Shown here piece by piece: positions 3,220-18,094 of a DNA stretch of 20,972 bases. Below the pieces are notes generated by a model. The model did not search any database and was not told the origin of the DNA. It saw nothing but the letters and a program-made list of their open reading frames with translations. A program made the position numbers and the translations under genes. Position 1 is the first letter of the stretch, and every line of letters starts with the position of its first letter. Location: IMG/VR virus record IMGVR_UViG_3300046804_001103, positions 1-20,972 of that record, one strand, 5' to 3'. This DNA comes from a virus.

Positions 3220-3463
3220 AGAGACATCAGACCTGCAGAATGAAGCAGCGCAACTGATGATCCGCTGCGCAGAGTTGGCACGCGAAAACGATGTGCTGAC
3301 TGAACAAGTGGAACGTCTGATGTATCGCATTGAAAACCTGCGTGGCACATTGTCTGCCATCGAAAATATCACAACTGCAGATGAAGACCTTGCTCCTTGG
3401 TGGGCACAGGCAGCATTGAAAGAAGATGATACCTTTGTAAAGGAAACCCGCGATGAACGATAA
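3206..3463 (+). CDS. Coiled-coil small protein (GTG start)
   Basis: I place the start at GTG 3206, which has the best ribosome-binding site in the area (AAGGAGG, 191-197 of this stretch, 7-8 nt upstream), instead of ATG 3167 or 3170 deep inside the hydrolase gene. The 85-residue product is mostly one long helix with coiled-coil heptads (residues about 8-55, ...LQNEAAQLMIRCAELARENDV... then EQVERLMYRIENLRG), followed by an acidic tail with WWAQAALKEDD. Such proteins often dimerise. It overlaps the hydrolase gene by 14 nt and the next by 11 nt. No function is assigned. Confidence 0.65.
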   Translation: MSYDKETSDLQNEAAQLMIRCAELARENDVLTEQVERLMYRIENLRGTLSAIENITTADEDLAPWWAQAALKEDDTFVKETRDER

Positions 3464-3671
3464 GAACTGTGTTAACTGCCGATTCACCACAGGAAAAGAC
3501 GGTGGATCACTTAGCTGCCAACGCAACCCTGTTCCAGTGCGTGTTGCACGTTCATACTGGTGCGGTGAATGGCAGGAGATGGCTGCTGCACCACAGCCTA
3601 AAGCACGTACACCGCGTGAGATGAAGAAAGACTACAGCACTCTTTTCGTGGAGAAGGAAAGCAGTGATTGA
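3453..3671 (+). CDS. Small Cys-containing (zinc-finger-like) protein (72 aa)
   Basis: This 72-residue protein begins MNDKNCVNCRF, giving a C6-x2-C9 pair, followed by Cys 22 (SLSCQRNP) and Cys 37 (YWCGEW). The C-x2-C-x12-C-x14-C layout and the 'CxxC...C-x-R-x-P...WCGE' pattern resemble small zinc-binding phage or host proteins of unknown function. The C-terminal half is Pro/Ala rich then basic and polar. It starts at ATG 3453 with AAGGAAACCCGCG upstream and overlaps the coiled-coil gene by 11 nt. Confidence 0.65.
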   Translation: MNDKNCVNCRFTTGKDGGSLSCQRNPVPVRVARSYWCGEWQEMAAAPQPKARTPREMKKDYSTLFVEKESSD

Positions 3672-7693: not shown

Positions 7694-7948
7694 GGTGAAG
7701 ATCGGGTGAACATAAGTGGTGAACATCCCGTTTTTCTGGAACATATTTAGGAGGGTGAATAAGGTGAACATAGTGAATATAATAGCTAATATAATAATAA
7801 ACACTGTAAGTGACTGATAGTACTACGCTATCGGCTGCTATGTGTTACAGCTAGACCATAGCTATAGCCTATATGTAATGGCTAGAAGTGTTTGCGGGAT
7901 TTATGTTCACCATCTTCACTGAGTGTTTCAAGTAAATCTGAGGGTAAA
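7694..7948. other. AT-rich non-coding gap: candidate origin/operator region
   Basis: No credible gene fills this 255-bp gap between the helicase gene and the next ORF, the largest gap in the replication module. It holds four exact GGTGAACAT 9-mers and related copies (see the repeat entry), an AT-only stretch around 7776-7800, and overlapping GCTA/TAGC palindromes around 7849-7867 (AGCTA-GACCA-TAGCT). Iterons plus an AT-rich tract next to replication genes is the usual composition of a phage origin; multiple operators for a repressor is the alternative. Confidence 0.5.
7705..7911. repeat. GGTGAACAT 9-mer repeat cluster (iteron-like)
   Basis: Exact GGTGAACAT occurs at 7705-7713, 7718-7726 and 7763-7771, and inverted (ATGTTCACC) at 7903-7911. 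Degenerate copies flank the third one in strict 9-bp tandem: GGTGAATAA at 7754-7762 and AGTGAATAT at 7772-7780. A given 9-mer is expected about 0.16 times in a window this size on both strands, so four in 207 bp is not random. Binding partners could be the DnaA-like protein, the HTH protein or the VapE helicase. Confidence 0.7.
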
Positions 7949-8533
7949 ATGATGACGGAAAAGCAGAGCAATCGGGGTCGAACGCAGCGTGCTGATGCGG
8001 TGGTAAATCCAGTCAAAACTGCGTCTGAAGCAGCGTGGCGTGCTGCACTGCAATACGCAGACGAGGCGGCATTGAGGATCGAAGGACAGTGGAGCATTGG
8101 CAGATTGGAGAAGCTGGTTGCACCCGAACTTGCTGCCAAGTTCGCAATGGCGCAGTGGCAACTCGATGAAGCTATCCAAGCAGGTGATGCACAGCTTGCA
8201 GCGCAGAAGTCGGCTTCCGTGGCTAGAGGGTGGCACGCGCTGGACAAGGCTGCACGGGAGGCAGGTCATACACCAGAAGACATTGGGCAGGTGTGGTTCC
8301 ATCGCAGCGATGACGGCAAAAAGGCTTATGCATTCGCTGTCGATATTCACGCGGCTGACAGGCTGCGGAAGAAGTATCCAGATCACACAGTTTACAGTTT
8401 TGCCGAGGTGGCACGGATCATCGAAGCTTCACAGGCTGGATTGTTCACTGCTGCCGTGAAGAAGGCGTTTCCCGGGGCTACAGTGGCTGCACAGCGCAGC
8501 CGTGAGGAGCCTGTGGACGAGATACCGTTTTAG
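7949..8533 (+). CDS. Unknown protein with canonical SSB-like C-terminal tail
   Basis: The start is ATG 7949 (or ATG 7952 directly after it), behind CTGAGGGTAAA. I do not recognise this 194-residue protein. The N-terminus is basic and polar (KQSNRGRTQR), the centre is Ala-rich helical (residues about 25-90, with WRAALQYADEAALRIEGQW and KFAMAQWQLDEAI), then comes a compact part with VWFHRSDDGKKAYAFAVDIH, and it ends EEPVDEIPF. The last residues are nearly identical to the DDIPF tip of bacterial SSB, which recruits replication and repair proteins. No OB-fold motif is evident, so it is not clearly an SSB. It follows the candidate origin and precedes the terminator at 8649. Confidence 0.7.
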   Translation: MMTEKQSNRGRTQRADAVVNPVKTASEAAWRAALQYADEAALRIEGQWSIGRLEKLVAPELAAKFAMAQWQLDEAIQAGDAQLAAQKSASVARGWHALDKAAREAGHTPEDIGQVWFHRSDDGKKAYAFAVDIHAADRLRKKYPDHTVYSFAEVARIIEASQAGLFTAAVKKAFPGATVAAQRSREEPVDEIPF

Positions 8534-8574
8534 ATGGTGCTGGTGTATAGTCATTTATGCGCGATTGACGCTGG

Positions 8575-8589
8575 TGTTATATTATAACA
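8575..8589. promoter_or_regulatory. 15-bp perfect palindrome, possible operator
   Basis: TGTTATATTATAACA is a perfect inverted repeat (7-bp arms, one central T) in the gap after the 194-aa gene. A TTGACG hexamer lies just upstream at 8565-8570, but no -10 box sits at a normal 16-18-bp spacing (TATAAC at 8583 would be only 12 bp away), so a promoter is not firmly supported. A repressor or activator site controlling the terminase transcript is plausible. Confidence 0.4.
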
Positions 8590-8625
8590 TTCAGACGCTT
8601 ATGCCGATGGTTACGAGGGTGACAA

Positions 8626-8730
8626 ATGCTTTATGCAGGTAAACCGGGAAAAAGAGGCTTCGTGCTTCCTCTTTTTTCCATTTCATTGCTCTGCTTCAGT
8701 GCTTCTGTTGCAAAGGTGTCACATGGCTGA
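8626..8730 (+). CDS. Possible leader peptide (34 aa) spanning the terminator
   Basis: ATG 8626 has an excellent ribosome-binding site (ACGAGGGTGACAA). The ORF encodes 34 residues: a basic start (MLYAGKPGKRG) followed by a hydrophobic run (FVLPLFSISLLCFSASVA), resembling a signal peptide or membrane anchor. It runs across the intrinsic terminator at 8649-8677 and ends 8 nt into the small-terminase gene. Translation of this ORF would melt the terminator hairpin, so it could act as an attenuation leader; alternatively the ribosome-binding site is fortuitous. A real but unknown membrane peptide is a further option. Confidence 0.35.
   Translation: MLYAGKPGKRGFVLPLFSISLLCFSASVAKVSHG
8649..8677 (+). 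terminator. Rho-independent terminator before terminase genes
   Basis: AAAAAGAGG (8649-8657) pairs with CCTCTTTTT (8668-8676) around a 10-nt loop, and the 3' arm merges into a six-T run (8672-8677). This is a normal intrinsic terminator, with an A-run on the 5' side that could also serve the opposite strand. It separates the replication module from the terminase and structural genes, so late genes either read through it or start after it. Confidence 0.75.
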
Positions 8731-9337
8731 ACCAGACAACTTTGATTCAAGAGGCAAGTTTGCGGTTGGCAACAAGGCGAACCCGTTCAACGGTTTGCCG
8801 CGTAAGCAGGTGCTTATGTATCGGCGGCTTGAGGGTCTGACACCGAAAGCAATCGGCAGGCTTGAGAAGCTGATGGAGCAGGACGAGAACCGTGCAGTTG
8901 CGTTCAACGCGGCGAAAGAGATACTGGATCGCACGCTTGGCAAGGTCAGCACGAAGGTCGATGTCACAGTGAAGACAACGGCAGAGCTGCACCTTGAAGC
9001 ACTGGTCACGCTGTCGCAGCGTGCCAAGGAGCGCAGGGATCAGGTGATCGACGCTGTGGCAGTGGAGACACAGTTGATTGAGCCAAGCAACTGTCAAACT
9101 GGTGACAGTGTCAAACTTTTGACAGGTGAAAACGCGGATACCCCCCCGGCTCCCGGGGTTGGCGGGGGCGCGCTGGTGCGGGGAGCACCCGCTGCCTACA
9201 CCTACACACCTAAAGACGATGTAACACCTGATGTTACTGTCACAACTACGGACGATGAAGCAGAAGAAGCAACGGCAATCCGTGACGCAGTTGCGCAGAT
9301 GTTTACCCCCCCACCCCCCGGCGACAAGGAAGCATGA
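8723..9337 (+). CDS. Terminase small subunit (probable)
   Basis: Start at ATG 8723 follows AAAGGTGTCAC; the longer in-frame start at 8633 would run through the terminator. The 204-residue product lies directly upstream of, and overlaps as ATGA, the large-terminase gene. Residues 1-75 include SRGKFAVGNKANPFNGLPRK and a helical segment LTPKAIGRLEKLMEQDENRA, like the DNA-binding part of small terminases, followed by a helical oligomerisation-like part to about residue 115. The last 85 residues are Pro/Thr/Asp rich and low in complexity. Small subunits recognise the packaging site and regulate the large-subunit ATPase and nuclease. The identity rests mainly on position and the N-terminal pattern. 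Confidence 0.75.
   Translation: MAEPDNFDSRGKFAVGNKANPFNGLPRKQVLMYRRLEGLTPKAIGRLEKLMEQDENRAVAFNAAKEILDRTLGKVSTKVDVTVKTTAELHLEALVTLSQRAKERRDQVIDAVAVETQLIEPSNCQTGDSVKLLTGENADTPPAPGVGGGALVRGAPAAYTYTPKDDVTPDVTVTTTDDEAEEATAIRDAVAQMFTPPPPGDKEA
9091..9124. repeat. Alternating TGTCA/TGACA half-sites inside terS
   Basis: CTGTCA (9091) and TGACAG (9103) form one inverted pair; TGTCAAA-CT-TTTGACA (9109-9124) is a perfect 7-bp inverted repeat immediately after. TGTCAAACT also repeats directly at 9092 and 9109 (17-bp period). Four half-sites in 34 bp within the small-terminase gene suggest a protein-binding cluster, for example a pac-type site, since pac sites of several headful phages lie inside this gene. 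Confidence 0.5.
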
Positions 9338-10734
9338 TGTCTGCTTCTAAAAAAAATAACTTCATCGACTTCATTGAGGCGTATGGCGATGATCCTGTTG
9401 CCTTTGTTGAGGAGGTCTTACAGGCGAAACCGTTAGACTGGCAGAAGGAGTTTCTGCGCAGCATTGCGAAGGGTGAACGGCGCATCAGTGTTCGGGCTGG
9501 TCACGGTGTCGGCAAGTCAACTGCGTGTTCATGGGCTTTGATCTGGCACATGGTTACACGGTATCCCCAAAAGGGTGTTGTGACGGCTCCGACTGCACCA
9601 CAGTTGTTTGATGCTTTGTTTGCTGAACTGAAGGCATGGATTAACAAACTGCCTCCGGTGTTGAAGGACAGCTTTGAGGTCTTCAGCGACAAGATTGCCT
9701 TCAAGGCTGCGCCCGAATCGAGCTTTATCAGTGCACGCACCAGCAGCAAGGAAAGACCTGAAGCACTGGCAGGTGTGCACAGTGAGAATGTGCTTTTGAT
9801 TGTTGACGAGGCATCGGCTGTTTTTGAAGAAGTGTTTGAAGCAGCTGCTGGTTCGATGTCCGGTCATTCAGCGACAACGGTGCTGATTAGCAACCCGACG
9901 AGAAACAGTGGACTGTTTTTTAAGACGCATCATGAATTAGCGGCAGACTGGAAGCGGATGCACGTTAGCTGCTTGGATAATCCGCTTGTCTCGGCTGACT
10001 TCGTCAATCAGATCAAGGCAACATATGGAGAAGGCAGCAATGCTTTCCGCATCCGTGTGTTGGGTGAGTTTGCGTTAGCTGATGATGACACGCTGATCCC
10101 GGCTGAATTGGTTGATGGTGCGATTAACCGCGATATTACGGTGTCACCTGCAGAACCGATTATCTACGGTGTCGACGTTGCACGATTTGGCACGGACAGA
10201 ACTGCACTATGCAAAAGGCGTGGGAATGTTGTCCTAGAAATCAAGTCATGGGGCGGCTTGGATTTGATGCAGACGGTTGGCGCGATTGTTAATGAAGCAA
10301 AGCTGGATGCACCTGAAGAAATCTGCGTTGACACGATTGGACTGGGTGGCGGTGTTGCAGACCGACTGCGTGAGCAAGGGTACAATGTTCGCGATGTGAA
10401 CGTGTCTGAATCGTCAGCCATGAATCCGAATGCTAATCGGCTGCGCGATGAACTATGGATGGCAGTGAAAGATTGGCTGGCAACAAGGGCTGTGAAGCTG
10501 CCGCGTGATGAAAGTCTGCGGCAGGAGCTGGTTGCACCAAGGTATAACTTCACAAGTTCAGGCAGGTTGGTTGTGGAGTCGAAGGATTCAATGCGGAAGC
10601 GGCGTATGCGTTCACCTGACTTGGCTGACGCATTGTGCCTGACGTTTGCAGGAAATGCTGCGGCAGTCGGTGGTCGTGCTTTGGCGTGGAAACCCGGTAA
10701 ACCGCTGACACGCGGGATCAGAGGGGTTGTATAG
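9334..10734 (+). CDS. Terminase large subunit (ATPase/nuclease)
   Basis: The 466-residue protein shows both motor and nuclease signatures. Walker A is GHGVGKST (residues 56-63), Walker B VLLIVDEA with D158 and E159, and the coupling motif SNP at 186-188. The RNase H-like nuclease has D281 in YGVDVARFGTDRTAL, a second acidic motif in CVDTIGLGGGVADRL, and the third in SPDLADALCLTF. It drives DNA into proheads and makes the packaging cuts. Length and layout are typical. ATG 9334 overlaps the small-subunit stop as ATGA. An eight-A run (9349-9356) sits five codons from the start. tRNA-Gly begins 4 nt after its stop. Confidence 0.95.
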   Translation: MMSASKKNNFIDFIEAYGDDPVAFVEEVLQAKPLDWQKEFLRSIAKGERRISVRAGHGVGKSTACSWALIWHMVTRYPQKGVVTAPTAPQLFDALFAELKAWINKLPPVLKDSFEVFSDKIAFKAAPESSFISARTSSKERPEALAGVHSENVLLIVDEASAVFEEVFEAAAGSMSGHSATTVLISNPTRNSGLFFKTHHELAADWKRMHVSCLDNPLVSADFVNQIKATYGEGSNAFRIRVLGEFALADDDTLIPAELVDGAINRDITVSPAEPIIYGVDVARFGTDRTALCKRRGNVVLEIKSWGGLDLMQTVGAIVNEAKLDAPEEICVDTIGLGGGVADRLREQGYNVRDVNVSESSAMNPNANRLRDELWMAVKDWLATRAVKLPRDESLRQELVAPRYNFTSSGRLVVESKDSMRKRRMRSPDLADALCLTFAGNAAAVGGRALAWKPGKPLTRGIRGVV

Positions 10735-10737
10735 GTT

Positions 10738-10812
10738 GCGGGTGTAGCTCAGTGGTAGAGTTTCTGTCTTCCAAGCAGAATGTCGTGGGTTCGATCCCCA
10801 TCGCCCGCTCCA
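10738..10812 (+). tRNA. tRNA-Gly (anticodon TCC)
   Basis: The sequence folds as a full cloverleaf: acceptor GCGGGTG with CGCCCGC (one T-G wobble), D-arm GCTC/GAGT, anticodon stem TCTGT/GCAGA around loop CTTCCAA with anticodon TCC at 10770-10772, and T-arm around TTCGATC. The discriminator is T and CCA is encoded (10810-10812). It starts 4 nt after the large-terminase stop and probably is excised from the late transcript by host RNases. It would help decode GGA (and GGG) codons. Confidence 0.93.
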
Positions 10813-10841
10813 ACTATCTTGGAATACCGGATGATTGGTTA

Positions 10842-10917
10842 GCTCCTGTAGCTCAGTTGGTAGAGCAACGCTTTTGTAAAGCGAAGGTCGCGGGTTCAAA
10901 TCCTGCCGGGAGCACCA
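10842..10917 (+). tRNA. tRNA-Thr (anticodon TGT)
   Basis: Cloverleaf: acceptor GCTCCTG with CGGGAGC, D-arm GCTCAGTTGGTAGAGC, anticodon arm CGCT-TTTGTAA-AGCG with anticodon TGT at 10875-10877, and T-arm GCGGGTTCAAATCCTGC. Discriminator A plus encoded CCA (10915-10917). It decodes ACA and probably other ACN codons. It lies 29 nt behind tRNA-Gly. Phages carry tRNAs to match their codon use or to replace host tRNAs cleaved during defence. Confidence 0.93.
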
Positions 10918-10973
10918 TTCGCAATTGTAGCAAGTTTAGTGTAGTTTATGCAGTGAAGATAAGGTGAATGGCT

Positions 10974-11282
10974 ATGGCAAAAACACCTGCGTGGCAGCGT
11001 TCAGAAGGCAAGAACCCTAAAGGTGGGTTGAATGCCAAGGGTCGTGCATCTGCAAAAGCTGCAGGCATGAACCTGAAACCACCAGTTAAGTCTGGCGATA
11101 ATCCTCGTCGTGCTTCATTCTTGGCTCGTATGGGTAATATGACGGGACCAGAACGCGATGAAAAAGGAAAACCAACACGTTTACTTTTATCGCTGCAAGC
11201 ATGGGGTGCGAGTTCTAAAGCGGATGCGAAGACCAAGGCAAAAGCTATCTCCGCGAGAAATAAAGGAAAGGGCGGCAAATGA
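10974..11282 (+). CDS. DUF6321-like basic protein
   Basis: The start is ATG 10974, 9 nt after AAGGTG; ATG 10968 is an in-frame alternative but too close. The product (102 residues) begins MAKTPAWQRSEGKNPKGGLN, then AKGRASAKAAGMNLKPPV, SGDNPRRASFLARMGNMTGP, and a Lys-rich C-terminus ending RNKGKGGK. This matches the phage family I know as DUF6321, of unknown function. It is strongly basic and Gly/Lys rich, like DNA- or RNA-associated virion proteins. It overlaps the next small basic gene by 4 nt (ATGA). The homologue family lies next to terminase genes in several phages, consistent with this location. Confidence 0.75.
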   Translation: MAKTPAWQRSEGKNPKGGLNAKGRASAKAAGMNLKPPVKSGDNPRRASFLARMGNMTGPERDEKGKPTRLLLSLQAWGASSKADAKTKAKAISARNKGKGGK

Positions 11283-11440
11283 AGAAGCCCGTCTGGAAAA
11301 CGAAAGACCCTACAAAGACAGACAAGAAGCTGACACCGAAACAAAAGTCAGCCGCAAAGTCGATGGCGAAGGCTGCAGGTCGGCCTTATCCTAATCTCGT
11401 TGATAATATGCGTGCAGCACGCATGAAGAAAGGAAAGTGA
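11279..11440 (+). CDS. Very basic small protein (53 aa)
   Basis: ATG 11279 overlaps the DUF6321 stop as ATGA, and the frame stays open to 11440. About a third of the 53 residues are Lys or Arg (MKKPVWKTKDPTKTDKKL at the start; ARMKKGK at the end), around a conserved-looking core AKAAGRPYPNLVDNMRAA. I recall this 'RPYPNLVDNMRAA' core from short proteins in other phages, always of unknown function. It is probably nucleic-acid binding. Position, coupling and the recognised core make it a real gene despite its size. Confidence 0.75.
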   Translation: MKKPVWKTKDPTKTDKKLTPKQKSAAKSMAKAAGRPYPNLVDNMRAARMKKGK

Positions 11441-11441
11441 C

Positions 11442-11681
11442 ATGAGCAGCTTTTTGGCAAACGGTCGCGTTTGGGGTGATGCAGAGTCGATCACAACATC
11501 TGCCACAGCAAACAATGCTTATTCGGCTATCTATGTCGGTGGCACAGGCGATGTGATTGTTGTGACTGAAGCAGGTACAACGGTGACATTCAAGGCTGTC
11601 CCGGTTGGCACAATTATCCCGATCCGCACGCAGAAGGTGCTGGCAACTTCAACGGCTACCCTGATGGTTGGCTTCAAGTAA
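11442..11681 (+). CDS. Small beta-rich phage protein (79 aa)
   Basis: ATG 11442 follows AAAGGAAAGTGAC. The 79-residue sequence alternates small and hydrophobic residues (ANNAYSAIYVGGTGDVIVVT, TVTFKAVPVGTIIPIRTQKV, ATLMVGFK) in the way of a small beta-sandwich or beta-barrel. Such short 'spike' or decoration-like proteins are common between terminase and capsid genes in phages with an SU10-type capsid. No catalytic residues are visible. It may be a head-decoration or stabilising protein; that is inference from fold and position only. Confidence 0.65.
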   Translation: MSSFLANGRVWGDAESITTSATANNAYSAIYVGGTGDVIVVTEAGTTVTFKAVPVGTIIPIRTQKVLATSTATLMVGFK

Positions 11682-11691
11682 GAGGTGCATC

Positions 11692-12210
11692 ATGGCGCGT
11701 ATGCCTGAAGGAATCGGCCTTCTGTCATCTCGTATGCAGGAGATGATGGGTGAAGGTGAAATGGATCGTTCGTGTCCTGTGGCAACACGCGACATCACGA
11801 TGAACCTGAAGAACCGTGGCAAGGCAATCAAGGTTGCCATGTATGGTCCCATGAACCCTGATGAACCTAATCAAGATTATTGGGCAAAGATGGCTGCAAA
11901 GTGGGATGTTCCTGCGGAAGAAGCCAAGACAATGCGTTGCGGTAATTGCGCTGCATTCATTCAGACTGCAAAGATGCTGAAGTGCATCGAAGAAGGTTTG
12001 GCTGATGGCGACAATGAAGCGGATGCCATGGAGACTACTGAAGCGGGTGATCTTGGCTTCTGTGAAGTCTTCGATTTCAAATGCGCAGCCAAGCGCACCT
12101 GCTCTGCATGGATCGTCGGTGGACCTGTCACAGATGAAGAAGGTGACAGTGAAGACAACGAGTCTGAAGACGGTGAGATGTACTCATCTGAAGATGGGGA
12201 AATGGACTAA
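11692..12210 (+). CDS. Cysteine-cluster protein, metal or Fe-S binding (HiPIP-like pattern)
   Basis: The ATG at 11692 follows AAGAGGTGCATC. The 172-residue protein has a polar N-terminus, then seven Cys: 28, 83, 86, 98, 124, 131, 137. The core MRCGNCAAF ... LKC ... GFCEVFDFKC ... KRTCSAW is a recurrent phage motif; databases sometimes name such proteins 'high-potential iron-sulfur protein-like'. Spacing C-x2-C-x11-C then C-x6-C-x5-C would suit a [4Fe-4S] or Zn site. The last 35 residues are very acidic (D/E/S rich). No signal peptide. Redox, electron-transfer or structural roles remain open. Its stop overlaps the glycosyltransferase start by 1 nt. Confidence 0.65.
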   Translation: MARMPEGIGLLSSRMQEMMGEGEMDRSCPVATRDITMNLKNRGKAIKVAMYGPMNPDEPNQDYWAKMAAKWDVPAEEAKTMRCGNCAAFIQTAKMLKCIEEGLADGDNEADAMETTEAGDLGFCEVFDFKCAAKRTCSAWIVGGPVTDEEGDSEDNESEDGEMYSSEDGEMD

Positions 12211-12884
12211 TGAACCTTAGCATCTGTGTTCCCGCACGGGAGACTGTGAACACAGGTTTTTCGTATGACCTTGCCATGCTGGCTGCACGCTTCTACGGCA
12301 ATGCACCAGCTGGCACTACGTTCAACCTGAACTTCTTGAACGGCACGTTGATCGCTGACCAACGCACAAAGTTGGCAGAAATGAGCCTGAAGCAAGGTGC
12401 AACGCATATACTGTTTCTTGATAGTGATATGCGGTTTCCTTCTACAATCGCAGATCAATTAGCAGCGCATGACAAGGACATCGTTGCCTGCAACTATGCA
12501 ACGCGGCGCCTGCCTGTGAAGACTGTTGCCTTCTCTGACTTCTCAAACCTGTCATATATGTATTCGACAGATAAGACAGGGCTGGAAGAGTGTGATGCAG
12601 TTGGCATGGGTGCAATGCTTGTGAAGGCAGAAGTGTTCAGGAAGCTGACATATCCTTGGTTTCAAGTGCATTACCTGCCGTCTGCTCGTATGTGGATGGG
12701 CGAAGATATGTACTTCTGTCAGTTGGCAAAGGCTAACGGCTACAAGGTTTGGATCGACCATGATGCGTCGAAGCAAGTTCGTCACATTGGGTCATTTGAA
12801 TTTGGGCATGAGCATACGGAAGTGGCGCGTGCTGAAGATGAATCCGTTGCAGCAGCGGCTGCACGCATAGAGGAGGCGGTGTGA
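12210..12884 (+). CDS. GT-A-fold glycosyltransferase
   Basis: The 224-residue protein starts at ATG 12210, overlapping the preceding stop by 1 nt. It opens with a beta strand, LSICVPARETVNTGFSYDL, typical of GT2/GT-A transferases. The DxD-type motif is D71-S72-D73 in HILFLDSDMRFP, which binds the nucleotide-sugar via a divalent metal. Further features are DIVACNYATRR and AVGMGAMLVKAEVFRKL, then WMGEDMYFCQLAKANGY, as in this family. It would transfer a sugar, perhaps to phage DNA, a virion protein or a host surface glycan. No membrane segment is seen, so cytoplasmic. A methyltransferase lies one gene downstream. Confidence 0.85.
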   Translation: MNLSICVPARETVNTGFSYDLAMLAARFYGNAPAGTTFNLNFLNGTLIADQRTKLAEMSLKQGATHILFLDSDMRFPSTIADQLAAHDKDIVACNYATRRLPVKTVAFSDFSNLSYMYSTDKTGLEECDAVGMGAMLVKAEVFRKLTYPWFQVHYLPSARMWMGEDMYFCQLAKANGYKVWIDHDASKQVRHIGSFEFGHEHTEVARAEDESVAAAAARIEEAV

Positions 12885-13060
12885 TGAAGGGCAAAGGCGG
12901 TAAATCTAAGATTGCTAAGGTTATGGGTGAGTTCAAAAAGGGTACATTGCACGCAGGTGTGAACCCTAAAGGCCCTAAGAAGGCTCCTCTGGCGAAGTCT
13001 CGTAAGCAGGCGATTGCGATTGCCTTGTCAGAAGCAGGCATGAGCAAAAAGAAGAAGTAA
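12884..13060 (+). CDS. DUF6496-like Lys-rich small protein (58 aa)
   Basis: ATG 12884 overlaps the glycosyltransferase stop by 1 nt, behind AGAGGAGGCGGTG, a very strong ribosome-binding site. The 58 residues read KIAKVMGEFKKGTLHAG, a Gly/Pro/Lys stretch, then SRKQAIAIALSEAGMSKKKK. This is the DUF6496 pattern: 'KVMHEFKxGxL' followed by 'KQAIAIALSEAxK'. The family is widespread in phages and bacteria with no known function and is highly basic. It is the third lysine-rich small protein in this cassette. It overlaps the methyltransferase gene by 1 nt. Confidence 0.78.
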   Translation: MKGKGGKSKIAKVMGEFKKGTLHAGVNPKGPKKAPLAKSRKQAIAIALSEAGMSKKKK

Positions 13061-13620
13061 TGGAACACTTCTACGACCAGATTCAGGGCTGGTTTAACTT
13101 CAAAGAACCGTATCGTCAGGCTGTCCGTGAGGCAAAAGACGGTGCGGTTTTTGTGGAGTTGGGGTGCTGGAAGGGCAAATCAGCAGTTTTTCTAGGTGTT
13201 GAAGTCATCAACTCAGGAAAAACTGTTTCCGTTCACTATGTTGACCATTGGGGAGGGTCTGATGAACCTGCGCACAAAGCTGATCCTGATCTGGAACGTG
13301 TTTTTGAGCTATTTAACGGCAACATCGCACTTCTTCGTGGGCTTAATTGCACTGTGCATCGACGGCGCACGGTGGATGCTGCAGAAGATTTCGCAGATGG
13401 CAGCGTGGATTTCGTCTGGATTGATGCAGGTCATCAGCATGATGAAGTCTTGGCTGACATCAATGCGTGGTGGCCGAAGCTAAAAGTCGGTGGTGTCATG
13501 GGCGGTGACGATTACCCTATGGATGGTGTAAACTCTGCCGTGAAACAGGTTTTTCCGCAGCATGAAGTCGGCTCAGAAGGTGGCTGGCAGTGGTGGCGGG
13601 TACGGAAAAGGGGTCAATGA
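13060..13620 (+). CDS. Class I SAM-dependent methyltransferase
   Basis: This 186-residue protein starts at ATG 13060 (TAATG overlap). It has the Rossmann-like motif I FVELGCWKGKSAVFL (residues about 30-44, E-x-G-x-x-x-G), and post motifs SVDFVWIDAGHQHDEVLADI and WWPKLKVGGVMGGDDYP, as in the methyltransferase-24/CmcI-like family that acts on small molecules, sugars and peptides. SAM would be the methyl donor; substrate unknown. Adjacent to a glycosyltransferase, it could methylate a transferred sugar. Its end overlaps the portal gene by 4 nt. Confidence 0.85.
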   Translation: MEHFYDQIQGWFNFKEPYRQAVREAKDGAVFVELGCWKGKSAVFLGVEVINSGKTVSVHYVDHWGGSDEPAHKADPDLERVFELFNGNIALLRGLNCTVHRRRTVDAAEDFADGSVDFVWIDAGHQHDEVLADINAWWPKLKVGGVMGGDDYPMDGVNSAVKQVFPQHEVGSEGGWQWWRVRKRGQ

Positions 13621-15833
13621 TGGCTATGCAGGACATCCAGCCGGGAACATATACACCTGATCTGATCCCGCAGTCGGCAGAAGGTGCGCAGGGTACATCT
13701 TACAACACGGAGACAGGCTATCTGACTCCTTATGATGTGCCAATGTCTGAGGATCAATTCCGTTACACGGTTTATCAGGCAATTCAGGACGCACAGACCT
13801 ACATTGACAGCTATATCGCGCCTGAACGTGAACAGGCAATGTCCTATTATCTGGCTGAACCGCTGGGTAATGAGGAGCAGGGACGATCACAAATCGTTAT
13901 GACGGAGGTACGCGACACGGTACTCGCGATGCTTCCGTCATTGCTCCGAATCTTCACGGGCGGTGACAAGATTCTGGAATTTGTCCCGAAAGGACCGGAA
14001 GATGTCGCTGCTGCTGAACAGGCAACAGACCTGATTAACTACATCTTCAGCCAAGAAAACCCCGGTTTCCGTATATTGCATGATGCAATGAAGGATGCGC
14101 TTATCCTGAAGACTGGTGTGCTGACTTGGTACAAGCGCGATGATGTCAGTGTGGAATATTACTCATATTCTGGACTGAATCAGGCTGAAGCAAACATCAT
14201 CACCAATGATCCAGATGTCGATGTTGACTCCATCATGGAGGAAACAGACCTTGTGACTGGTGAAGTGCGTATCAGCCTCACCATTCGTCGTAAGCGAAAG
14301 AACCCGCGTTATGTTGTTGAGTGCATTCCACCTGAACAGTTCCTTATCGACAACGAAGCAACATCGTTAGATGACTTCATCTATATGGGTCGTCGCAAAC
14401 TGATGACGATCAGTGAACTTGTTGCAATGGGATATGATCGCACTGTCATCGAAGAAAACGCTGGAACAGGCGGTTTTGAGATGAACAACGAAGTGCTGGT
14501 GCGCAACCCTGCTGACCAGTCATTCTTTGGTCTTGATCTTGGCAACGACGAAAGCACCAACAAGGTGTTTTACGTTGAAAGCTATATCAAGGTTGATAAG
14601 GACGGTGATGGCATTGCAGAACTGCATAAGGTCTGCACGGTTGGCAATGGCTCTTATATCCTGCATCAGGAAGTTGTACAGGAAGCACCTTTCTCCATTC
14701 TTGCTCCTGATCCGACACCGCACACAATCTTTGGTCAGTCGATTGCAGACCAGACGATTGACCTGCAGCGCATTAAATCAGCAATCATGCGTAATACGCT
14801 TGATAGCTTGGCTCAGTCGATCCATCCGCGCACTGCTATCGTCGAAGGTCAGGTCAACATCGACGATGTTTTGAACAATGAAACTGGTGCGATTATCCGT
14901 ATGCGTCAGGCAGGTGCAGTGCAGCCGTTTGCTACACCATTTGTCGGTCAGCAGGCGCTGGGTGTGATGGGTTATCTTGATGAAGTAAAGACGCAGCGCA
15001 CAGGTCTTTCGCGTGCAGCTCAGGGTCTTGATGCAGAAGCATTGCAATCGACTACACGCGCTGCAGTGCAAGCACAGTTGTCATCGTCGCAGGAACGCAT
15101 CGAAATGATTGCGCGTCTGTTCTCTGATGGCTTGAAACGCTGCTTCCAAGGTTTGCTGAAGCTGGTGATCCAGCATCAGGACAAGGCAAAGATCATCCGT
15201 CTGCGTGGCAAGTTTGTGCCGATTGATCCGCGTGGCTGGGATGCTGGCATGGATATGGTCGTTAACATTGCTCTTGGTCGCGGTTCTGATGAACAGCGCA
15301 TGGGCTTCTTGATGACGATCCTGCAGCAGCAGAAGGAAACAATTCAGGCATTTGGTCCAATGAACCCGCTCTGTGGCGTCGATAAGATTGCAGACACATT
15401 GGCTCAGATCACACAGCTTGCTGGTTTCCAAGACCCCACAAAGTTCTGGAATCAGGTATCACCTGAGCAAGTGCAGCAATATGCTGCAATGATGGCATCT
15501 AATAAGTCACCTGATCCTGCAACAATGCTTGCTAATGTTGAGGCAGAAAAGATCAAGGCTGACATAATCATCAACGCGGCTCAGTTGGAACTGGATCGTC
15601 AGAAAGCTATTGCGCAGGCTGATCTTGATCGTGACAAGCTGTATGTCGATTCACTGATGAAGGCTATGGAGATTAACGCGAAATACGGTGCACAGGTTGA
15701 TATGGCTGTCATCAAGGGTGAAGTTGATAAGCAGCGTGAGGAAATCAAGCAGATTTTCGCAACTGCAGGCGCTATGCAGCAGCAACAGCAGCAACCAGTT
15801 CCTCCTGTAATGCCTCCTAACATGGTGATGTGA
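13617..15833 (+). CDS. Portal (head-to-tail connector) protein
   Basis: The 738-residue protein starts at ATG 13617 (ATGATGG, overlapping the methyltransferase stop); ATG 13620 is equally possible. Its length suits a podovirus-type portal. Recognisable family segments are MTEVRDTVLAMLPSLLRIFT, EFVPKGPEDVAAAEQATDLI, FRILHDAMKDALILKTGV and PPEQFLIDNEATSLDD. The later part has LGRGSDEQRMGFLMTILQQQ and a coiled helical region, ending in a Gln/Pro-rich tail (MQQQQQQPVPP). Twelve copies would form the ring through which terminase packs DNA. Confidence 0.92.
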   Translation: MMAMQDIQPGTYTPDLIPQSAEGAQGTSYNTETGYLTPYDVPMSEDQFRYTVYQAIQDAQTYIDSYIAPEREQAMSYYLAEPLGNEEQGRSQIVMTEVRDTVLAMLPSLLRIFTGGDKILEFVPKGPEDVAAAEQATDLINYIFSQENPGFRILHDAMKDALILKTGVLTWYKRDDVSVEYYSYSGLNQAEANIITNDPDVDVDSIMEETDLVTGEVRISLTIRRKRKNPRYVVECIPPEQFLIDNEATSLDDFIYMGRRKLMTISELVAMGYDRTVIEENAGTGGFEMNNEVLVRNPADQSFFGLDLGNDESTNKVFYVESYIKVDKDGDGIAELHKVCTVGNGSYILHQEVVQEAPFSILAPDPTPHTIFGQSIADQTIDLQRIKSAIMRNTLDSLAQSIHPRTAIVEGQVNIDDVLNNETGAIIRMRQAGAVQPFATPFVGQQALGVMGYLDEVKTQRTGLSRAAQGLDAEALQSTTRAAVQAQLSSSQERIEMIARLFSDGLKRCFQGLLKLVIQHQDKAKIIRLRGKFVPIDPRGWDAGMDMVVNIALGRGSDEQRMGFLMTILQQQKETIQAFGPMNPLCGVDKIADTLAQITQLAGFQDPTKFWNQVSPEQVQQYAAMMASNKSPDPATMLANVEAEKIKADIIINAAQLELDRQKAIAQADLDRDKLYVDSLMKAMEINAKYGAQVDMAVIKGEVDKQREEIKQIFATAGAMQQQQQQPVPPVMPPNMVM

Positions 15834-17110: not shown

Positions 17111-18094
17111 ATGACTACAGTTTCCAAGGTCACAACCTATGACGCACCGAACTCAATCCGAGAGGATTTGAGCAACATTATCTATGACATCAGCCCGACT
17201 GATACGCCATTTATGAGCAACATCGGTCGCGACACCTGCGAAAACACCTATTTCGAATGGCAGACGGACGTTCTTGCTGCGGCTGATACGTCGAATGCTG
17301 CCATCGAAGGTGCGGATGCAGGTAATGCTGAGTTCGTCCCGACTGTTCGCGTTGCGAATTATACCCAAATCAGCCGCAAGGTTATTTCGGTGTCTGGCAC
17401 AGACGATGTCGTGAACAATGCAGGCATGCGCACCCAGATGGCCTATCTTACCGCTAAAGCTGCTAAAGAGCTGAAGCGCGATATGGAAGCCATTCTTACA
17501 AGCAACCAAGCTGGTGTTGCTGGCAACAGTTCCTCCACAGCTCGTAAGACTGCTGGTCTGCCGACTTGGCTCATCACCAACTCGCAGGCTAACGGTGCAA
17601 CTGTTTCGGAAATGTCCGGCGCCAACGGCAACGGCTATCCCGACACAGCATGGACCAGCCTTTCGACTTCGACAGACGTTGCTCTGACGGAGACGATGCT
17701 GAAGACTGCTATCCAGCAGGTCTGGACGCAGGGCGGTGATCCGTCGATCTTCATGGTCAATGCGTACAACAAGACTGTGGCTTCTGCATTCGCTGGTCTT
17801 GCCCAGCAGCGCATGAACTACACCTCTGCAACTCCTATGAAGATCATTGCAACGGCTGACGTTTATCTTGGTGACTTTGGCGAAGTCGCCATTGTTCCTA
17901 ACCGCTTCAGCCCCGGCAACTTTGCCTTCGTGCTTGATCCTGAGTATGCGTCTGTGGCGTATCTGCGTCCGTTCCGCACGTTCGACATTGCCAAGACTGG
18001 CGACTCGGACAAGAAGGAAATGGTGGTGGAATATGGCCTCCGCATTAAGTCTGAAAAGGCTCATGCGGTCATCGCCAACATCATCGCTTCGTAA
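17111..18094 (+). CDS. Major capsid protein (SU10/DUF5309 type)
   Basis: The 327-residue protein begins TTYDAPNSIREDLSNIIYDI followed by SPTDTPFMSNIGRDTCENTY, a family start for SU10-like capsid proteins of the HK97 fold. Also present are FEWQTDVLAAADTSNAAIEG, RVANYTQISRKVISVSGTDD, AAKELKRDMEAILTSNQ, FMVNAYNKTVASAFAG, and a C-terminal GLRIKSEKAHAVI. It forms the icosahedral shell. ATG 17111 follows AGGAAGTAAGCT. Codon choice is C/G-biased at third positions relative to nearby genes, as is usual for a highly expressed gene. A hairpin follows its stop. Confidence 0.93.
   Translation: MTTVSKVTTYDAPNSIREDLSNIIYDISPTDTPFMSNIGRDTCENTYFEWQTDVLAAADTSNAAIEGADAGNAEFVPTVRVANYTQISRKVISVSGTDDVVNNAGMRTQMAYLTAKAAKELKRDMEAILTSNQAGVAGNSSSTARKTAGLPTWLITNSQANGATVSEMSGANGNGYPDTAWTSLSTSTDVALTETMLKTAIQQVWTQGGDPSIFMVNAYNKTVASAFAGLAQQRMNYTSATPMKIIATADVYLGDFGEVAIVPNRFSPGNFAFVLDPEYASVAYLRPFRTFDIAKTGDSDKKEMVVEYGLRIKSEKAHAVIANIIAS

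Follow-up and report, generated by a model that had tools for sequence, protein, structure and literature searches.

The stretch of viral DNA analyzed here (IMG/VR record IMGVR_UViG_3300046804_001103, 20,972 bp, termed the window) raises the question of what brings two tRNA genes and seven protein genes together between the gene for the terminase large subunit (terL, end 10734) and the portal gene (start 13620). The reading favored, with moderate confidence, is that this cassette region (10738-13620) is a late accessory module of head and DNA-packaging genes in an SU10-like podophage and that its Cys-cluster protein would bind metal in the prohead interior. The conserved core of the interval is the Cys-cluster protein together with a Lys-rich protein of the DUF6496 family, usually accompanied by a DUF6321 protein; it adjoins terL and portal. 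In other phages the Cys domain belongs to head proteins, namely portal, protease and capsid. The interval and its borders contain the following features.

9337..10734 (+), terminase large subunit, left border; PF03237 1e-5, phrog_2 8.4e-47
10738..10812 (+), tRNA-Gly (TCC), CCA encoded; ARAGORN, Rfam 66.7 bits
10842..10917 (+), tRNA-Thr (TGT), CCA encoded; ARAGORN, Rfam 70.6 bits
10968..11282 (+), DUF6321 protein, basic, 104 aa; PF19846 2.5e-21, 76.5 bits (cut-off 28.5), phrog_4689
11279..11440 (+), K2, Lys-rich protein, 53 aa; phrog_34011 1.3e-21 (PHROG of unknown function)
11442..11681 (+), predicted head-spike base protein, RcGTA Rcc01079 family, 79 aa; NF048002 49 bits, 5.5e-13 (cut-off 28), PDB 6tb9
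11692..12210 (+), Cys-cluster protein (P0003), stand-alone form of the Cys domain, 172 aa, acidic tail; family alignments, fusions elsewhere
12210..12884 (+), glycosyltransferase (GT), Anp1 family; PF03452 37.8 bits (cut-off 28.8), phrog_1574 8.9e-23
12884..13060 (+), DUF6496 protein, Lys-rich, 58 aa; PF20106 39 bits (cut-off 24)
13060..13620 (+), S-adenosylmethionine-dependent methyltransferase (MT), Methyltransf_24; PF13578 2.7e-20, 73.6 bits (cut-off 26.3)
13620..15833 (+), portal protein, SU10 type, right border; PF23899 3.3e-196

The first-pass annotation of a 2.9-kb interval with two tRNAs and seven genes is borne out, ARAGORN and Rfam agreeing on the tRNAs and the seven open reading frames (ORFs) spanning 10968-13620. 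Its three Lys-rich small proteins, Cys-cluster protein, GT and MT are likewise supported by composition and Pfam matches. Lys makes up 15.4% of the DUF6321 protein, 26.4% of K2 and 27.6% of the DUF6496 protein, the three having pI values of 10.8-11.4, and the Cys-cluster protein contains 7 Cys with a pI of 4.2. The surrounding head module is of the SU10 type, with the portal (PF23899), major capsid protein (MCP, PF17236) and adaptor (PF24175) all matching SU10 Pfam families. The overlaps of 1-4 nt and short gaps from which a coordinated function had been suggested are present (-4, 1, 10, -1, -1, -1 and -1 nt), but the late genes 3' of portal are equally tight (-4, 12, 3, -1, -1, -1, 6 and -16 nt), and the spacing is therefore rejected as a sign of joint function. 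The evidence for the module is co-occurrence, not overlaps. Across 10500-13800 the two promoter-like sites and one terminator-like site do not exceed the shuffle means (2.5 and 2.8, respectively), and this absence of excess sites fits a single transcript.

Conservation of the interval and its core

The IMG/VR sample comprised 80 portal relatives and 20, later 80, Cys-protein relatives in overlapping sets, and the ORFs of 171 non-redundant loci, window and named records included, were searched with iterated profiles of the window genes. The portal set holds 79 non-redundant loci (78 fetched plus the window), and the 58 that show terL followed by portal form the denominator for interval counts. 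DUF6496 is present in 48 of these intervals, Cys in 45, DUF6321 in 34, the spike base in 9, K2 in 8, GT in 8 and MT in 6. Every one of the 45 Cys-bearing intervals also holds DUF6496, and three have DUF6496 without Cys. The premise that terminase and portal are usually close does not hold among these relatives, as the gap is 16 bp or less in just 9/58 and at least one cassette gene lies in between in 48/58. The terL-portal gap varies in SU10-like podophages, the extremes here being 1 bp and 7 kb; it contains a single gene (labeled putative peptidase) in Sinorhizobium phiM5 and none in nine related loci. In the Cys-search loci, DUF6496 lies within 2 kb of the Cys gene in 69 of 79 non-redundant cases.

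The window's clade shows the fullest form, DUF6321-K2-spike base-Cys-GT-DUF6496-MT (6 loci), and the spike base and MT are limited to it in this set. A second clade has DUF6496-Cys, often with DUF6321 next, and its GT is positioned 3' of the capsid gene; over the 58 loci GT is inside the interval in 8, downstream of the capsid gene in 31 and not found in 19. A third group, six of the 69 loci with Cys and DUF6496 within 2 kb, has K2 with the core and lacks GT. In a tRNA scan of 52 loci, tRNA-Thr(TGT) is confined to L002/L082, L007/L085, L084 and L087, and only the last two also have tRNA-Gly(TCC). The coordinated function proposed for the cassette is supported for the core, by its co-occurrence, and not for the whole, which is not kept together. 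Scattering without co-occurrence, the outcome named in advance as telling against coordination, is not what the core shows, whereas the spike base, GT, MT and tRNAs are confined or located elsewhere. An independent-pairs test on a portal tree (61 rows) gave 2-4 pairs in the comparisons listed, those other than Cys/DUF6496, and this number is too small for judging joint evolution. At L022:1-443 a DUF6321-K2 pair stands upstream of terL though terL and portal abut, and this pair may move as a unit. K2 has no tblastn match in the named phage records, and DUF3072, tried as its identity, reaches only 14.5 bits against a cut-off of 27.5.

The pairing of Cys and DUF6496 recurs outside the portal set. 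Among 50,697 named records, 7 contain relatives of the Cys protein, all 7 labeled "high potential iron-sulfur protein" (HiPIP) by their depositors, and one DUF6496 query finds 13 (two of them, the ct2KA10 records, left out of the neighborhood inspection). Both genes are present in 5/7 Cys-bearing records, two of the five being equal in length and match, and they lie within 1 kb of each other in four. The hypergeometric p for this co-occurrence, 1e-17 or 2.7e-14 without the near-identical record, treats records as independent and is given little weight because all five come from one source (Manatee Spring). In MW202462 the order is HiPIP-DUF6496-mannosyltransferase-methyltransferase-...-terminase-portal, and in locus L155 it is Cys-DUF6496-796-aa protein-small gene-TerL-portal, with TerL assigned by Pfam. 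A protein of 772-796 aa with no clear family stands between the Cys-DUF6496 and terminase genes at L155:8706-11096 and L143:4517-6835. In Vibrio pA2SJ1, MW202879 and Klebsiella phage RCIP0045 the gene immediately 5' of portal is DUF6496, and Vibrio VpP_1 has the same layout with the portal unlabeled. The RCIP0045 copy is an unannotated, complete ORF (L211:1793-1921) flanked by TerL/HNH and portal genes that Pfam confirms, and the stretch from portal to head maturation protease in S-CBS4 contains DUF6496, two glycosyltransferases and a methyltransferase.

DUF6321 is found in 485 of the 50,697 named records, mostly cyanophages. Ten were inspected, and seven of these have a gene for TerS, TerL, portal, scaffold or capsid no more than 1.5 kb away. 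Three T4-like cyanophages have DUF6321 between gp16 and gp17, HTVC304P has it between the scaffold and capsid genes and MEP301 immediately 5' of portal; it is close to capsid in HTVC115P and to terL in MEP401. In Pag-Yong1 it adjoins a "needle head" gene, and its surroundings in Hodr are unannotated. Among 79 non-redundant IMG/VR DUF6321 loci, 30 have a head or packaging gene within 1.5 kb, on the same strand in all 30, and 12 also hold DUF6496. Two of these loci, L362 and L294, have the order TerL-DUF6496-DUF6321-portal; their portals are of the MEP301 type and give no match to the SU10-type profile. Both window proteins pass the cut-offs of Pfam families of unknown function (PF19846 and PF20106), and what is new here is the link of these families with the Cys domain and with genes for the head and packaging. 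The open-access literature yielded no paper for DUF6321, for DUF6496, for HiPIP in phage genomes or for iron-sulfur/prohead protease fusions, and on high-potential iron-sulfur with bacteriophage capsid only papers that appear unrelated.

A possible explanation of the interval, if not the probable one, is an insertion hot spot in which separate accessory genes gather where they are sure of late expression and disrupt nothing, their linkage reflecting shared descent and late timing. The wide range of gap sizes, the HNH genes that occupy comparable gaps in other phages, the mostly external position of GT, and the confinement of spike base and MT to one clade and of the tRNAs to the closest kin all agree with it. 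The core behaves otherwise. The Cys-DUF6496 pair is found again in phages whose gene order and surroundings differ, DUF6496-DUF6321 is seen again in front of a portal not of the SU10 type, and a single polypeptide carries both Cys and DUF6321 in L177 and L259, two of the 80 loci of the fusion scan described next.

The Cys domain in head proteins of other phages

A scan led by fused forms, combined with the older fused loci, gave 80 non-redundant loci, and the Cys domain lies in an ORF of at least 250 aa in 45. The fusion-partner count covers 41 proteins of at least 300 aa, with one dropped whose length was due to an apparent false upstream start. By Pfam the partners are Peptidase_S78 (9), Phage_portal_2 (8), Phage_capsid (7), Peptidase_S78_2 (3) and DUF5824 (3), with rarer cases of zeta toxin (2) and of DUF6321, ADPrib_exo_Tox and PARP (1 each), and the PHROGs agree with Pfam on portal, head maturation protease and major head protein partners. 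Seven of the nine S78 fusions continue into an HK97 capsid domain. Polarity, mapped for the portal and S78 fusions, is constant: the Cys domain is C-terminal to the portal in 8/8 lambda-type fusions and in L250, which has another portal type, and N-terminal to the S78 protease in 9/9. In proheads, both the C-terminal side of the portal and the segment preceding an HK97-type protease/capsid chain point inward. In DSL-LC01 a Cys gene stands immediately before three capsid maturation proteases. The window differs from the S78 protease/HK97 capsid and lambda-type portal fusions in that its Cys protein is separate (172 aa) and its capsid is of the SU10 type.

In L224, L234 and L254 one chain combines the Cys domain with zeta-toxin-like kinase or PARP domains, and these fusions are possibly packaged effectors. 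They would suit an explanation in which the Cys domain marks or carries injected cargo, that is internal head proteins ejected with the DNA and acting on the host, with effector domains in some phages. Same-chain zeta-toxin-like kinase (2/41), PARP (1/41) and ADPrib_exo_Tox (1/41) domains speak for it, as does MW202867, a record with P22-like portal and coat in which the Cys gene is flanked by genes labeled "phage stabilization" and "putative DNA transfer". This explanation is unlikely, since the commonest partners found are portal, protease and capsid, the window's Cys protein has no effector domain, and minor head proteins are in any case often fused to ADP-ribosyltransferases.

Spike base, glycosyltransferase and methyltransferase

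The gene previously described only as a small beta protein is present and is now identified by its NF048002 match as a predicted head-spike base of the RcGTA type. The 79-aa window protein resembles the 84-aa RcGTA protein Rcc01079, and phmmer aligns residues 29-78 with PDB 6tb9 (4e-4). In RcGTA, according to PMC7296036, an Rcc01079 pentamer on capsid pentamers holds the fiber, and by analogy the window protein would act at capsid vertices. The window's gene differs from the RcGTA system in sitting between terL and portal. Its only match in a named phage is in Rhizobium phage RHph_Y25 (L214:4884-5147), one gene before terL. The partner spike fiber of this family begins with an (I/L)-G repeat, and a start of the LGLGL type was not found within the first 45 residues of plus-strand ORFs of at least 80 aa at the 17 spike-base loci, many of which, like the window, are fragments.

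The GT has the sequence LDSD at residues 70-73, a DxD-type motif as in the Anp1 family. Gene neighborhood is the only basis for suggesting that GT and MT may decorate the virion, the pair putting a sugar on virion proteins and methylating it. Capsid glycosylation is likewise inferred from phage glycosyltransferases in an announcement (PMC11256854).

An operon for virion decoration, with spike base, GT and MT central, the other genes as helpers and the spikes or sugars binding the host surface or shielding from it, would account for the RcGTA family assignment, for GT in the late module of both clades and for the enzymes next to DUF6496 in S-CBS4 and after HiPIP-DUF6496 in MW202462. It is nevertheless an improbable account of the interval. 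The spike base and MT are missing from most kin that keep the core, the spike-base loci gave no fiber with the RcGTA-type start, and in MW202462 phmmer links neither the mannosyltransferase nor the methyltransferase beside HiPIP with the GT or MT of the window, this record having its GT relative at another position.

An anti-phage defense role finds no support in PADLOC, which gave 0 matches for the seven cassette proteins (E up to 0.01). Outside the cassette, a 303-aa open frame (17153-18064, minus strand) runs antisense to the major capsid gene, probably through codon bias, and 939 nt (7694-8632) separate the gene of a VapE-like helicase from terS; this segment contains a TTG-start ORF (7892-8533) with relatives in 34/171 loci.

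The Cys-cluster protein and the prohead interior

Relatives of the Cys-cluster protein are numerous in IMG/VR, with at least 587 and at least 586 confirmed in two scans of 600 candidate stretches each, and a bacterial genome scan found just two, both on contigs of metagenome-assembled genomes. Residues C28, C83, C86, C98, C124, C131, C137 and W140, among others, are invariant in a 28-sequence alignment, and five Cys are retained in the most distant relatives aligned. The protein has no Pfam or NCBIfam match, its sole PHROG match is weak (phrog_21719, E 0.0025) and a PDB sequence search with P0003 and A1 gave nothing relevant. Its likeness to HiPIP (PF01355) is a CxxC ... C ... CxAW pattern with aromatic neighbors in register. 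Aligned by hhalign with nine bacterial HiPIPs, the phage family places the four ligand Cys in register with a score of 24.95 and a probability of 16%, exceeding 60/60 shuffles that keep the Cys columns (maximum 20.9). The five distant relatives alone score 27.4 with a probability of 40% over 16 columns only (best Cys-keeping shuffle 23.95). The phage protein differs from HiPIP in its longer second spacer, its phage head context, the lack of a profile match and of a signal peptide by eye, and its extra conserved Cys (three among near family members, one among the most distant relatives). The HiPIP-like character is suggestive only, and the conserved Cys pattern makes it likely that the protein carries a metal site, predicted to be 4Fe-4S or Zn. 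Similar motifs occur elsewhere. The only PF01355 match in the window is a 72-aa CxxC-C-CxxW protein at 3453-3671 (+), with 16.4 and 18.1 bits, under the 22-bit cut-off. A second HiPIP-like motif (CANC...C...C) shares its chain with the Cys domain at L171:2914-4275, and the motif CANC...C...C also lies within a capsid-protease gene (L104:14219-16774) two genes after the Cys domain.

A role as a genuine high-potential iron-sulfur electron carrier, with the Cys gene as an auxiliary metabolic gene for host redox metabolism, is very improbable for the Cys protein despite the depositors' labels and the shuffle-exceeding register of the four HiPIP Cys, given the low hhalign probability, the absence of a PF01355 match and of a visible signal peptide, the fusions to capsid-building proteins and the two relatives only in the bacterial genome scan.

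Several observations weigh against the reading of the interval as a head and packaging module with a metal-binding protein of the prohead interior. The whole set is missing from 10/58 intervals, nine of them with terL and portal spaced by 1-16 bp, so the module is not essential for the SU10 head type, and gene order varies among clades. Cys and DUF6496 are ~18 kb apart in MW202879, the Cys genes of MW202867 and MW202879 lie beside ejection-type or unannotated genes instead, DUF6496 is ~4 kb upstream of terL in MW202481, and DUF6321 in Greip is near M15-peptidase and HNH genes with no head neighbor. Just 38 of the 79 IMG/VR DUF6321 loci have a recognized TerL, portal, MCP or scaffold gene within 6 kb, a biased rate that comes from phmmer with limited seeds, some from phages chosen for DUF6321 near head genes, and from the rows closest to the MEP301 sequence. 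Close kin among the 41 fusions (L218/L219, L245/L246 and L097-L099) mean fewer independent fusion events, and the three XkdF-type (Peptidase_S78_2) fusions fall outside the polarity mapping. PF01355 (cut-off 22 bits) misses P0003 and no profile identifies the metal, and AlphaFold, with 28 full-length rows and then with 43 core rows, gave a mean predicted local distance difference test score of 48 both times.

On the favored reading of the interval as a head and packaging module, the Cys protein would fold around a metal site (4Fe-4S or Zn) and enter the prohead on the lumenal side near the portal, where it would either aid assembly or stay as an internal head protein, possibly leaving with the DNA. 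The small strongly basic proteins would share this space and may bind DNA or else the acidic Cys protein and portal, and the two tRNAs would be passengers of the closest kin. A wider proposal, doubtful at present, is that the Cys domain is a general prohead-interior metal-cluster domain (perhaps 4Fe-4S) of aquatic phages that places portals, proteases and effector cargo lumenally, with DUF6496 and DUF6321 as its Lys-rich partners.

Should that general role be real, the virion head would enclose a defined iron-sulfur or zinc protein, and if the Cys protein binds iron there it would offer a concrete protein for the debated iron content of marine phages. Fusions of constant polarity now connect the Cys domain, which has at least 580 IMG/VR relatives and lies outside the Pfam and NCBIfam families, with portal, prohead protease and capsid, and DUF6321 and DUF6496, two domain families of phages, gain a first working context. 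That Cys-DUF6496 recurs beside the head genes of further aquatic phages suggests a kind of phage head protein that has been overlooked.

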